DNA from: Methanosarcina spelaei
Lineage (GTDB): Archaea > Halobacteriota > Methanosarcinia > Methanosarcinales > Methanosarcinaceae
Direction of reading: 5' to 3'
NCBI RefSeq assembly: GCF_002287235.1
Contig: NZ_LMVP01000113.1
Span: 1 to 44,111 of the forward strand
DNA: 44,111 nt
In this document: positions 23,852 to 32,776 of the stretch, piece by piece
Numbering within the stretch: the first letter of the stretch is position 1
Layout of the letters: each line of letters starts with the position of its first letter
Translations under genes and position numbers: made by a program
Notes under the pieces: model-generated
Seen by the model: the letters and a program-made list of their open reading frames with translations, nothing else
What the model was told of the DNA's origin: nothing
The model's database searches: none

Positions 23852-24502
23852 TTACTGCCGTGCCATGACCATGCGTGTTTCAGCTTCCTTGTCCTCGATC
23901 AGTTTGCCGCTCACGTCCACGGTCACCCTGTAGATCTTGCCTGTGAACTCAAAAGGAGGCTCGTAATCAGGTGTAACCGGTGATCCGTGAGCTGAGCCGC
24001 AGGTAACCCCGCTGGTTAACCCGAGTACAAGAGGAGTAGTTACAGGGATCTCAGCCTGGCCGACTAATTTCCCGTCTATATAGAGTTGAGCCTTTCCGGG
24101 TGCACCCTTACCGTTAGCAACATCTGGCTTACCTGTCACCTCAAACTCGAAGCGCAGTTGGTGCTGTCCCTCAGGCACATTGTTGAATAATAAATTCTCG
24201 TTGACCGGTACGGTAGAACCACCTTCGGAACTGGCACCATTGTCGGAAATAACCATAATCAAGATGTTTTCAAATTCGCCAATGTCTTTTAGAAACTGCA
24301 GCAACCTGTCTATATGGTAATCGGTGTGTTCCAGAAATCCGACAAAGACTTCCATCATGCGGGCATAGAGCTTCTTTTCTTCATACGAGCTTTCTTCCCT
24401 GAGTCTGACATCCGGGTCATGGCATGATGGTTCAGACTGGTCAAATGTGCGCCCGATTACACCTGGAAAAGTGGTTCCTGGTTTGTATTCTTTAAGCGGC
24501 AT
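23852..24502 (-). CDS. Arylsulfatase remnant with two in-frame internal deletions
   Basis: The open frame of 216 residues begins MPLKEYKPGTTFPGVIGRTF, as in large (about 780-residue) arylsulfatases. It then jumps after DQSEP to HDPDV...EEKKLYARMMEVF. It reads through SDNGASSEGG and VNENLLFNNVPE, then jumps again to GQHQLRFEFEVTGKP and the normal C-terminus. Missing are the N-terminal catalytic block with CxPxR, whose Cys becomes formylglycine, and the central domain. The protein cannot be an active sulfatase. The start at 24502 has GGGAG five bases upstream and the frame is intact, so the deletions were in frame. The family comparison is from memory. Confidence 0.75.
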   Translation of the reverse strand: MPLKEYKPGTTFPGVIGRTFDQSEPSCHDPDVRLREESSYEEKKLYARMMEVFVGFLEHTDYHIDRLLQFLKDIGEFENILIMVISDNGASSEGGSTVPVNENLLFNNVPEGQHQLRFEFEVTGKPDVANGKGAPGKAQLYIDGKLVGQAEIPVTTPLVLGLTSGVTCGSAHGSPVTPDYEPPFEFTGKIYRVTVDVSGKLIEDKEAETRMVMARQ

Positions 24503-24687
24503 TTGTCTCCCTATCAATTTTTGATTTTCTAAAAAATTTATAAAAATAAGGGTGTAGAGAGGAACTGAATTTACTCTGCACCCCCACTCATTTTATTCCC
24601 ACTTATTTTCTTCTTGAATTTTTGTTCTTGGCTTAAACTAAGTTCTAGAAACACGTGTTTCCCAGATTAGCATTTTTCGATCAAATT

Positions 24688-25194
24688 TTAGCGTGCCGGA
24701 GCTGCTTCTTCTTCGGCGAATGTCTCATGCAGCTTTCTCTCTTCTTCTTTGGACAAATTGGTAGCAATGATTTCAAACTTGAACTGTTTCATTGCATCTG
24801 CGACTCTATCTTCTATGGCATCACTGGTCATCAAAAAGAGAGCTGAAGTGCCTTCAGTCACTTTGCTGCGCACTGACTTTATAAAATTTTCATCAATACC
24901 CACATGAGACATGGAACCCATCAGTGCACCCATTGCTGCCCCAACTACCATACCAAATATAGGAATAAAAAAGATCAGGCCAAAAAGTAAACCCCAAAAA
25001 GCTCCACTTAACGCTCCGGCACCTTTTAAATCGCTCAAATGTTTTGTTTTCGGTTTCTTTTTTCCCTCAGGCCAGGTGACTATGGCTGCATCATGCAGAT
25101 TGATCAGTTGCTCTTTGCTTAAATTTTCTATCACCTCAAGAGCTTGTTCAGCACCGTCAGCGGTTTCAAACTTCAGAACTGTTAATGTTGCTAT
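24688..25194 (-). CDS. DUF1269 membrane-hairpin protein, apparent ATA start
   Basis: The 168-residue protein has the DUF1269 core: NLHDAAIVTWPEGKKKPKT, a Gly-rich double helix GAGALSGAFWGLLFGLIFFI and GMVVGAAMGALMGSM, then GTSALFLMTSDAIEDRV. Family members begin MATLTVLKFxTxxGAExAL. Here the matching sequence is ATLTVLKFETADGAEQALEV, and the codon before it (25194-25192) is ATA. GGAGG lies eight bases upstream and a TGA is in frame two codons before. The first standard start (GTG at 25134) would delete 20 conserved residues. Either AUA is used or the start is mutated. Function is unknown; a stress role is often assumed. Confidence 0.8.
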   Translation of the reverse strand: MATLTVLKFETADGAEQALEVIENLSKEQLINLHDAAIVTWPEGKKKPKTKHLSDLKGAGALSGAFWGLLFGLIFFIPIFGMVVGAAMGALMGSMSHVGIDENFIKSVRSKVTEGTSALFLMTSDAIEDRVADAMKQFKFEIIATNLSKEEERKLHETFAEEEAAPAR

Positions 25195-25916
25195 GGTTCA
25201 AACCTCCTTTTATGCGACATATTTGCTGGTTATTATGTTTTCACGTCAGTTCATTAATAGAGGTGAAATCATAATCGCAATTATCGTTTTTTAAGTATTG
25301 AAAAAGCTGGGTTAGTCCTGTCTTCATCCCGGATTACATGTTTTATGCTGTCTTAACATGCAGAAGCACAATAGTCGGGAAAAAACCTGACTTAAATCCC
25401 TCAAGCTTTTTGTGGCAGGGTCAGGGAGCAGCCAGTTTGTTGCAGAAAGCCACCAGTATGATTTTCTTCGTACAGTGTGATCTTGCATATTTCACATGTA
25501 TTGATGTCCTTTCACAGACCAGTGCCGCATCAATTCTGAAGAACTCAATTATTTCGAGTAATGGCAATCGATTTTGTATGACATTTTGTTGTATACATGA
25601 CACTGGACTGTCCAGAGGTAGGCAAATCGATTAAAATTGTTTTTTGAATTCTCTATTTCAACCCGGATGCTGAGATATGTCGAATATCTCTTTACGAAAA
25701 CCTCTTGCAGGAATCTACATGTCAATTTTTATACTGTCAACTCCCCAATAGAACCTTCGAGATTTCCCCAATCTCGGGGTTCAATAAATCACTTTATATA
25801 ATTATTCTTTTATATATTATTCTATGCACGTTGACTTATTTTATCGAGTCTGCTGAGGAGAATTACTCTTTAAAATTAAAAATGTTCTATTCTTTTTGCT
25901 AATCTTATTTCCTTTT
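25195..25916. other. Spacer with no supported gene
   Basis: Frames exist on both strands around 25338-25634, but none has a Shine-Dalgarno, a recognisable motif or gene-like composition. It may hold old IS debris. AT content is highest near 25790-25910. Confidence 0.4.
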
Positions 25917-27964: not shown

Positions 27965-28198
27965 AGGTTTTTAGATAGGTTATTCTACACTTTAAGATAA
28001 GTTACTTTACTCTTTAAGATGAGCTATTTTACTCTTTAAAATAAGTTATCTTACTTTTTCATAACTTATTTTACTCTTTAAAATAAGTTATCTTACTTTT
28101 TCATAGCTTATTTTACTCTTTAAGATAAGTTATCTTATTTTTTCATAACTTATTCTACTCTTTAAAATAAGTTATTCTACTCTTTCATAAGTATTTTA
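27965..28198. repeat. 42-bp tandem palindromic array between converging genes
   Basis: About four units of 42 bp start at 28031, 28073, 28115 and 28157, each opening ACTCTTTAAAATAAGTTATC or a close variant. Degenerate half-units precede them from about 27965. Inside each unit AATAAGTTAT pairs with ATAACTTATT, so the array can fold into serial hairpins. It ends at the stop codon of the AI-2E gene and probably acts as a two-way terminator. Confidence 0.85.
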
Positions 28199-29224
28199 TT
28201 CTTTACTTCCTGATTCCATCAGTTTTGCCATCCAGCGTGTATTATCGGAACTTTCAAGGATCATCTTCACGACCATTGTAAGAGGTATGGCTATAAGTGC
28301 ACCTGAGCCGCCCAGCACATAACCCCAGTAGAATAGAGACAGAAACACTATGGAAGGAGATAATTTAAGGCTCTTTCCTGCAAGGGATGGAAAAAGAACA
28401 TTCTCTATAAGCACGTTTATCAGCCATATCCCGACAAGCACTGCAATGGCCCCTATGGCCCCGTATTTAAATAATGCAAGCAGTACAGGTGGAACAGCTG
28501 CGAGGAAAAAGCCCAGATAAGGAATATAACCTAGCAGGAATGTCAGAAAACCCCAGAGAATTGCAAAATCGATTCTTCCGATAAGGAGCAGTATCGCCGT
28601 TCCGATGCCGCCAATCAAGTTGGTTTCGGTCCTTATGAGGATAAAATCTACCAGACTTCTTCCAAATTCGCGAACCCGCAAAAGAAGGACTGGTTGATCT
28701 TCAATTTCTCTTTCCAACTTTTTTGGCGCACCTGCAGCATCCAGAAGTAAAAATGCTGTCGTGATAACAATGAGCGCAATTGTTGTTCCGGCATTTAAGG
28801 CTCCTGTGAGTATTCCTACAGTCAGACCCAGCAGGAATGCTCCTACGTCACGTAAAATTCCCTCAATGGAAGAATATTGACCTGACGAAGGTAAATACCG
28901 CTCAATATTTTCAAAAATACTTGTTAATTGAGTTTGATACTCCGGGATCTGGGTACTGAGCTGAAGTAAGGACCCCGTAACAAGGAGCACTGCAGCAATA
29001 GCAAATATGATAAGGAAAATAATTACCAGACCCACACTAATCGAACCAGGAACTTTTTTTCTCTGGAGCCAGTGGACAATGGGAGAAAAGATTAGAAAGG
29101 CGAATATTGAGAAAAAAATAGGCACGAGTATGCTTCCAATTTCCCGCATCCCAATAGTCAGGATAACCGCAGCTGTACCGTAAAGTAAAATACTGGCTGG
29201 TACCGAATTATCGTCCGTGTCCAT
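28196..29224 (-). CDS. AI-2E/PerM-family transporter, paralogue 1
   Basis: The 342-residue protein has about eight membrane helices. It shows the family core YIPYLGFFLAAVPPVLLALF and GIWLINVLIENVLFPSLAGK, then SLFYWGYVLGGSGALIAIPL. Members of PF01594 include the quorum-signal exporter TqsA and Na+/H+ antiporters; the archaeal substrate is unknown. The start is ATG at 29224 (MDTDDNSVPASILLYG) with GGGG five bases upstream; the longer frame to 29257 lacks a site. A close paralogue lies at 31604-32638, and the two N-termini align residue for residue. Confidence 0.85.
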   Translation of the reverse strand: MDTDDNSVPASILLYGTAAVILTIGMREIGSILVPIFFSIFAFLIFSPIVHWLQRKKVPGSISVGLVIIFLIIFAIAAVLLVTGSLLQLSTQIPEYQTQLTSIFENIERYLPSSGQYSSIEGILRDVGAFLLGLTVGILTGALNAGTTIALIVITTAFLLLDAAGAPKKLEREIEDQPVLLLRVREFGRSLVDFILIRTETNLIGGIGTAILLLIGRIDFAILWGFLTFLLGYIPYLGFFLAAVPPVLLALFKYGAIGAIAVLVGIWLINVLIENVLFPSLAGKSLKLSPSIVFLSLFYWGYVLGGSGALIAIPLTMVVKMILESSDNTRWMAKLMESGSKE

Positions 29225-31603: not shown

Positions 31604-32638
31604 TTAACTTTCTTCAGCATCTTCAATCGGGCCCATCAATCTGGCCAGCCATTTTGTTTCCTCAAAACTTTCAAGTATAATCTTCAGAACTATTGTAAGC
31701 GGTATCGAAAGCAGCACACCTCCGAGTCCAAATACGAAATTCCAGTAGAGAAGAGCAAGAAATAGGAAAGCAGGAGATAATTGCAGGCCTTTTCCCATAA
31801 GTGACGGGAAAAGGACATTTTCTGCAAGCGCGTCTACGATAACGATAATTAGAATGACTGCAAGAGCACCTAGAGGCCCATACTTGAGAAGCGCAAGCAT
31901 TATGGGAGGAATAGAAGCAATAACCAGACCAATATAGGGAATATAACTTAACAGAAATATGAGGACTCCCCAGAGAATAGCATACTCGATGCCTCCGATA
32001 AATAGAAGGAGGGCGATTACAGTACCTGTTATAAGGTTTATTTCTGCTCTTATAACAATGAATTTTACCAGTTTTTTGCTAAACTCACTCATCCTCAAGC
32101 GGAGTTCGGATTGCTTTCCAATTTCCAAGTCTACTTTTTCAGGAGCACTGGCTGCATCTATTAGCAAAAATGCTGCTGTAATAATAATAATTCCGGCTGT
32201 TGTTCCGGCGTTCACAATTACATTAACAGTATTTGCCATGAGAGAAATCGTTACTGACAAGGCACTACGGAGAATTGACTCTACGGAAAATCCTTTATAT
32301 GAAGGGACAAGTTTTGTAAGATTATTTATGAGTTCAGTCAACTGAGCTTGATAAATCGGTATTTGACTTCCAAACTGCATTGCTGCTTTAACAACTATTA
32401 CCCCAAGGACCAGGATAATTAGAGTAAATAATAAAATTACCAGAATAACACTCAGTACACCTGGAACCCCTTTTTTTTTTAGCCAGCGGACAATCGGAGT
32501 AAAGATCAGCGCGGTAAACATAGAGAAAAAGACCACTGTAAGTATTGATGCAATCTCCCGCATCCCTATTGTCAAAATAACAGCAACGGTGCTGTAAAGT
32601 AAAATTTTAGCGGGTACTGAGTGATCATTTGAATTTAT
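31604..32638 (-). CDS. AI-2E/PerM-family transporter, paralogue 2, apparent ATA start
   Basis: The 344-residue membrane protein shares the full family core with paralogue 1 (YIPYIGLVIASIPPIMLALL, AENVLFPSLMGKGLQLSPAF, GLGGVLLSIPLT). The frame continues upstream of the first usual start (TTG at 32575) through NSNDHSVPAKILLYSTVAVI. This aligns exactly with DTDDNSVPASILLYGTAAVI, which follows the ATG of paralogue 1. The codon in the start position (32638-32636) is ATA. GGAGGGGTGA lies just upstream and no ATG, GTG or TTG is available. AUA initiation or a mutated start are the options. The substrate is unknown. Confidence 0.82.
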   Translation of the reverse strand: MNSNDHSVPAKILLYSTVAVILTIGMREIASILTVVFFSMFTALIFTPIVRWLKKKGVPGVLSVILVILLFTLIILVLGVIVVKAAMQFGSQIPIYQAQLTELINNLTKLVPSYKGFSVESILRSALSVTISLMANTVNVIVNAGTTAGIIIITAAFLLIDAASAPEKVDLEIGKQSELRLRMSEFSKKLVKFIVIRAEINLITGTVIALLLFIGGIEYAILWGVLIFLLSYIPYIGLVIASIPPIMLALLKYGPLGALAVILIIVIVDALAENVLFPSLMGKGLQLSPAFLFLALLYWNFVFGLGGVLLSIPLTIVLKIILESFEETKWLARLMGPIEDAEES

Positions 32639-32776
32639 ATTTTCACCCCTCCAGTTTCTCTTTTCGTAGTCATCATAGAAGTTTATGCCCTGATTGCTAC
32701 TTCTCTAAAAGCAACATCTATCAAAGATACCTGCCTTAACCTATCAACTTTTTTCGGACTCTTTTCAGATTAGAAC

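Follow-up and report, generated by a model that had tools for sequence, protein, structure and literature searches.

Probable AUA start codons conserved in Methanosarcina genes for an AI-2E family transporter, a DUF1269 protein and a CooC-type ATPase, with AUU in SufC

The AI-2E and DUF1269 genes of the window

The window (the whole analysed stretch of 44,111 nucleotides from Methanosarcina spelaei, NZ_LMVP01000113.1) corresponds to contig C113 in a draft genome made up of 559 contigs, which is labelled here as G000. The genes considered in this work, with their predicted start regions, are the following:

24688..25194, minus strand: DUF1269 protein (PF06897, E=1e-38; ATA is followed by 168 codons, with the stop counted)
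25192..25194, minus strand: predicted ATA start codon of the DUF1269 gene (ATA/ATG column across species)
25202..25208, minus strand: Shine-Dalgarno (SD) sequence AGGAGGT, 7 bases from the DUF1269 ATA
28196..29221, minus strand: AI-2E paralogue 1 (ATG at 29221-29219)
31604..32638, minus strand: AI-2E family transporter paralogue 2 (PF01594; ATA is followed by 343 codons)
32636..32638, minus strand: predicted ATA start codon of AI-2E paralogue 2 (genus-wide, the column reads ATA, ATG or GTG)
32643..32652, minus strand: SD sequence GGAGGGGTGA of AI-2E paralogue 2 (4 bases from ATA)

AI-2E paralogue 2 is matched by the Pfam profile PF01594 (E=2.2e-45, 155.7 bits; the cut-off of 34.3 is passed), and the alignment of paralogue 1 to it begins at the ATG of the former (29221), opposite the ATA at 32638-32636. 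The earlier note, which was made from the letters of the window alone, had assigned this ATA to the start position, had seen no alternative start upstream and had pointed to a second case within 8 kb, and all three observations hold. Read on the minus strand, the start region has the form ...AACTGGAGGGGTGAAAAT-ATA-AATTCAAATGATCACTCAGTA..., in which GGAGGGGTGA is followed by AAAT, by ATA and by the codons AAT TCA AAT GAT CAC TCA. The GGAGG core of GGAGGGGTGA lies 9 bases from ATA, and the duplex with GAUCACCUCCU, computed for the identical site of the nearest complete genome (G004), amounts to -11.3 kcal/mol. The 22 open codons upstream of ATA, up to an in-frame TAG, include no ATG, GTG, TTG or CTG, and the first canonical in-frame codon downstream is TTG 32575, 21 codons in. 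No Rfam matches were found within the window, and no stable mRNA structure was found in the start region.

The DUF1269 gene, whose ATA lies at 25194-25192, represents the second case and behaves in the same manner: its upstream frame is closed by an in-frame TGA at 25200-25198, two codons before ATA. Both window genes possess a ribosome binding site at proper spacing (GGAGGGGTGA for AI-2E and AGGAGGT for DUF1269), and a canonical in-frame substitute start is missing from the AI-2E genes of G000, G004 and G015, from the DUF1269 genes with a nearby stop and from the CooC-type ATPase of G026 (see below). The window also contains a sulfatase gene (23852-24517, minus strand) of about 221 codons, which looks internally deleted when compared with the 811-codon frame in G004.

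The start column in other Methanosarcina genomes

The AI-2E protein was searched for in 31 Methanosarcina genomes, and 44 genes could be given a start, with ATA in 16, ATG in 26 and GTG in 2 of them; a few members with a longer N-terminus have an ATG upstream of the column and were assigned that ATG in the count. Orthologues of paralogue 2 were identified in seven other genomes (87-96% identity), and the column reads ATA in 8/8 close orthologues (87-100% identity). A second AI-2E subfamily contributes seven further members with ATA (in G001, G007, G009, G010, G011, G019 and G026), so that ATA is present in two subfamilies. At least 6 changes of the ATA label have to be placed on the protein tree; they are forced by well-supported branches (the mean for shuffled labels is 13.2).

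Several start regions of AI-2E members show peculiarities of their own. G006 and G009 display an apparent swap, one having ATG in the SD sequence and an ATA start, the other ATA in the SD sequence and an ATG start. In G001, SD-like sites ahead of the start are multiplied by tandem ATTGGGGTAAGAAAA repeats, and the ATA of the G016 member stands ahead of an expanded AATTCA repeat.

For DUF1269 the column is ATA in G000, G004, G027, G007, G019, G026, G011 and G023, and ATG in most others. G001 and G010 also have ATA in the column, but with an additional in-frame ATG two codons upstream. Several members carry a stop two codons upstream of the start column.

The CooC-type ATPase and SufC

Two further genes, with non-canonical codons in the start column, were identified outside the window:

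G000:C53:2550 and G004 1382421, plus strand: CooC-type ATPase, predicted ATA start (column compared across 30 Methanosarcina genomes)
G004 2101767, minus strand, and G000:C538:18806, plus strand: SufC, predicted ATT start (found by the ATN pattern)

The CooC-type gene is unlinked to the two ATA genes of the window and begins ATA-KIAITGKGGVGKTT. Its column is ATA in 30/30 Methanosarcina genomes checked, preceded by the SD sequence CAGGGGGA or close variants. In most genomes there is no ATG, GTG or TTG upstream of ATA and in-frame stops are near (in G026 an in-frame TGA directly adjoins ATA), while the next in-frame ATG lies 39 codons on, beyond Walker A. The product is similar to the solved structure of CooC (3kje) from residue 1 and over nearly the full length (E=2.8e-46), with residue 1 after ATA aligned to residue 2 of the crystallised protein. 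The prediction that it is a genuine CooC (CODH maturation ATPase) rests on this similarity and on the Walker A motif GKGGVGKT; there are no data on nickel insertion.

The start ATA is kept in 29/29 genes, as compared with 22-26/29 for the remaining Ile codons that read ATA in this gene, with the exception of codon 3, which is invariant. Synonymous variability along the gene is lowest over the first eight codons (0.10 vs 0.31-0.41 elsewhere). The stretch of unusually low synonymous variation spans the first 8-12 codons.

An order-wide pattern search with the CooC N-terminus found ATA at 36 loci, of which 35 belong to the own family and one does not, and ATG at 29 loci (DTG pattern), all of them outside the family. 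Within the family the column of the sister genera is ATA, ATC (three loci) or ATT (one locus) where resolved, apart from TTT in G176, and none of the resolved loci has ATG, GTG or TTG, with 11 loci of these genera remaining unresolved. Since the resolved family loci never have ATG, GTG or TTG, whereas the outgroup families use ATG, we infer that the non-AUG start has been kept within the family. As judged from these pattern searches, the non-AUG state of CooC is conserved over long times.

The start of SufC is ATT in 11/11 Methanosarcina genomes matched by the ATN pattern, and in many Methanosarcina the frame opens exactly at this codon.

Alternative readings, proposed mechanism and precedents

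The comparison of genomes shows the position of the predicted start, its conservation and, for AI-2E and DUF1269, its exchange only with AUG or GUG. Among the other readings of the column, re-initiation after a tiny leader ORF with a stop overlapping ATA (e.g. ATG AAA TTA TAA) survives best, so that the terminating ribosome and not the SD sequence would set the start, yet we regard it as very improbable. The SD sequence of several AI-2E orthologues does contain an ATG or GTG that is out of frame and opens a short frame, which ends with TAA across or near ATA. However, such a frame is found only near some AI-2E starts, varies between species and is not present in DUF1269 or CooC, and its ATG abuts the GGGGG core with zero spacing.

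A slightly poorer case can be made for translation starting downstream, at TTG 32575 or at an ATG 25 codons in, with ATA belonging to a leader. A start at TTG 32575 was the outcome that the earlier note had expected to refute the use of ATA; it is the nearest canonical codon and is TTG in 6/8 close orthologues, but it is not conserved, being CTG in the other two (G015 and G022) and CTT in 6/7 further ATA-started AI-2E rows counted. It has no SD sequence of at least 5 bases ahead, and its use would cut the first membrane segment. Codons 2-20, which include the motif SxPAKILLYSTAAV, are conserved as protein in ATA- and ATG-started members alike, with dN ~0.045 vs dS 0.15-0.25 in four more distant pairwise comparisons. 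On these estimates, the region just after ATA evolves as coding sequence under selection at the protein level, and the same applies to CooC.

Weaker again is the possibility that translation begins upstream at another codon and that ATA is an internal Ile codon. The upstream frame is open in several AI-2E members, and in those of G005, G030, G001, G011 and G026 this frame contains TTG or ATG within a few codons of the column (TTG at -5 or ATG at -10/-11 in some), but no such codon is common to the members, and the TTG at -5 gives way to TTT, TCA or TCT in other members that likewise have ATA or ATG in the column. In-frame stops intervene five codons upstream in AI-2E of G015 (a TGA with no start codon between), two codons upstream in DUF1269 and immediately upstream in CooC of G026. 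An ordinary internal Ile codon would moreover drift to ATT or ATC, which are absent from the column among the AI-2E genes sharing this N-terminus, and no such drift is seen in DUF1269 either. Because of the upstream TGA in G015, the lack of conservation of TTG 32575, the coding-like character of codons 2-20 and the variability of the TTG at -5, we assign the AI-2E start to ATA.

The earlier note had left a choice between real use of AUA and linked G-to-A changes. A sequencing error or recent linked mutations in one genome could be suspected from the draft state of the assembly and from the occurrence of two cases within 8 kb, but this reading fails because the same ATA state recurs in separate assemblies, complete genomes included, in many AI-2E species and in all 30 CooC genes, and we consider it virtually ruled out; real use is instead supported by ATA columns in many species for both window genes and by the invariant column of the unlinked CooC gene. 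A-to-I editing of the mRNA (AUA to AUI, read as AUG) would account for the ATA/ATG exchange, but we found no direct evidence for it and it could not convert the ATC and ATT of the CooC column or the ATT of SufC, which leaves it with hardly any credibility.

We are therefore highly confident that ATA 32638-32636 is the authentic start of AI-2E paralogue 2, placed by the SD sequence and read by the initiator Met-tRNA, and that the DUF1269, CooC and SufC genes behave alike. From the conserved columns in these four families it follows that AUA (and AUU) are very probably genuine, conserved start codons in these methanogens, a conclusion for which neither protein nor ribosome-profiling data are available. 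In the proposed mechanism, the strong SD sequence would bring AUA into position under the 30S subunit. There it would be accepted by the usual Met initiator tRNA, whose CAU anticodon mismatches AUA at the third position, and the protein is accordingly inferred to begin with Met; DUF1269 (25194) and the CooC-type ATPase would start at AUA likewise, and SufC at AUU. The 2.0 Mb of G004 that were scanned contain two tRNA-Met(CAT) genes and no tRNA with the anticodon TAT that could serve as a special initiator (the remaining genome was outside the scan).

Archaeal aIF1 destabilises non-AUG complexes (PMC6237735), and AUA starts should therefore be weak and aIF1-sensitive. The decoding by the normal initiator tRNA, the N-terminal Met and the low, possibly aIF1-sensitive translation are all inferred. 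We propose that the weak start may be kept for low, possibly factor-sensitive translation, most clearly in CooC, for which a low-level, fidelity-sensitive start would be the likeliest reason for staying on AUH, in the absence of expression data. Judging by the free exchange with ATG, any such tuning seems loose in AI-2E and DUF1269.

In E. coli, infC starts with AUU and is subject to autoregulation by IF3. More speculatively, with a confidence that falls somewhat short of even, a conserved weak-start translational control may operate in Methanosarcinaceae, in which AUH (AUA, AUU, AUC) starts are kept in defined genes (those for CooC and SufC, two metallocluster factors, among them) and are gauged by aIF1 much as IF3 gauges bacterial infC. 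Streptomyces sigR has a GTC start (PMC5472188). The Methanosarcina genes would resemble both in that a weak start is kept by selection; however, infC and sigR are bacterial and their regulator is identified, whereas none is identified here. In Staphylococcus aureus, infC, ccpN, citZ and cvfC1 have AUA/AUU starts behind strong or extended SD sequences, and reporters with such starts reach ~10-30% of AUG expression (PMC13009471). The combination of a non-canonical start with a strong SD sequence and the conservation across species (ccpN and cvfC1 in S. aureus) are shared, but S. aureus employs a bacterial ribosome and IF3, while Methanosarcina has an archaeal ribosome and aIF1, other genes are involved and there are no expression data. 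ATG-to-ATA/ATT mutants of Listeria rsbW have a weak start (ATG > ATA > ATT; PMC13068326), in agreement with the function of ATA as a weak start that we infer for Methanosarcina; those mutations were, however, selected in the laboratory, whereas the Methanosarcina starts are long conserved.

A review of archaeal initiation names only AUG, GUG and UUG (PMC7531240), Ribo-seq of small ORFs in M. mazei reported ATG, TTG, GTG and CTG starts (PMC11456600), and a 2021 review states that, for Archaea, elongation and termination were the only steps for which non-canonical events had been shown (PMC8211752). The AUA case would share SD-led initiation and the initiator Met-tRNA with usual archaeal initiation and differ in the start codon. 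We found no report of an archaeal AUA start in the open-access literature (subscription papers were outside the scope); conserved AUA/AUU starts are known in bacteria, and the archaeal case appears to be new. Archaeal gene finders and reviews accept only AUG, GUG and UUG (sometimes CUG). Should AUA and AUU indeed serve as starts, and have been kept for the age of the family, the N-termini of CooC, SufC, AI-2E and DUF1269 are likely misannotated or the genes called too short. If true, this would also provide a natural system, amenable to genetics, in which to test how aIF1 enforces start-codon fidelity in Archaea.

The genome search for SD-led ATA genes that had been proposed in the earlier note was carried out on 2.0 Mb of G004, by scanning for ORFs with a strong SD sequence upstream of the first canonical codon. 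It yielded a modest excess of ATA (11 vs 6.8 expected), too noisy if taken alone; individual hits read as true N-termini, the best and a stronger example being the CooC-type ATPase. The modest excess in the SD-only scan of one genome suggests that the class of ATA starts is small. A pairwise comparison of starts between 400 kb of G004 and 400 kb of G005 (119 resolved pairs) returned only the two window families, the other flagged pairs being rejected as shadow frames or for a nearby ATG. As leads only, G004 contains candidate ATA starts in a gene for a NosD-like protein with a signal peptide (1098671, minus strand) and in an HD domain gene (1065795, minus strand), an ATT start in a gene for an unknown protein (1400792, plus strand), an ATC start in a PhoU/AbrB-like gene (2332057, minus strand), and CTG starts in genes for an 8-oxoguanine glycosylase-like (3347957, minus strand) and a ferredoxin-thioredoxin reductase-like protein (321077, plus strand).
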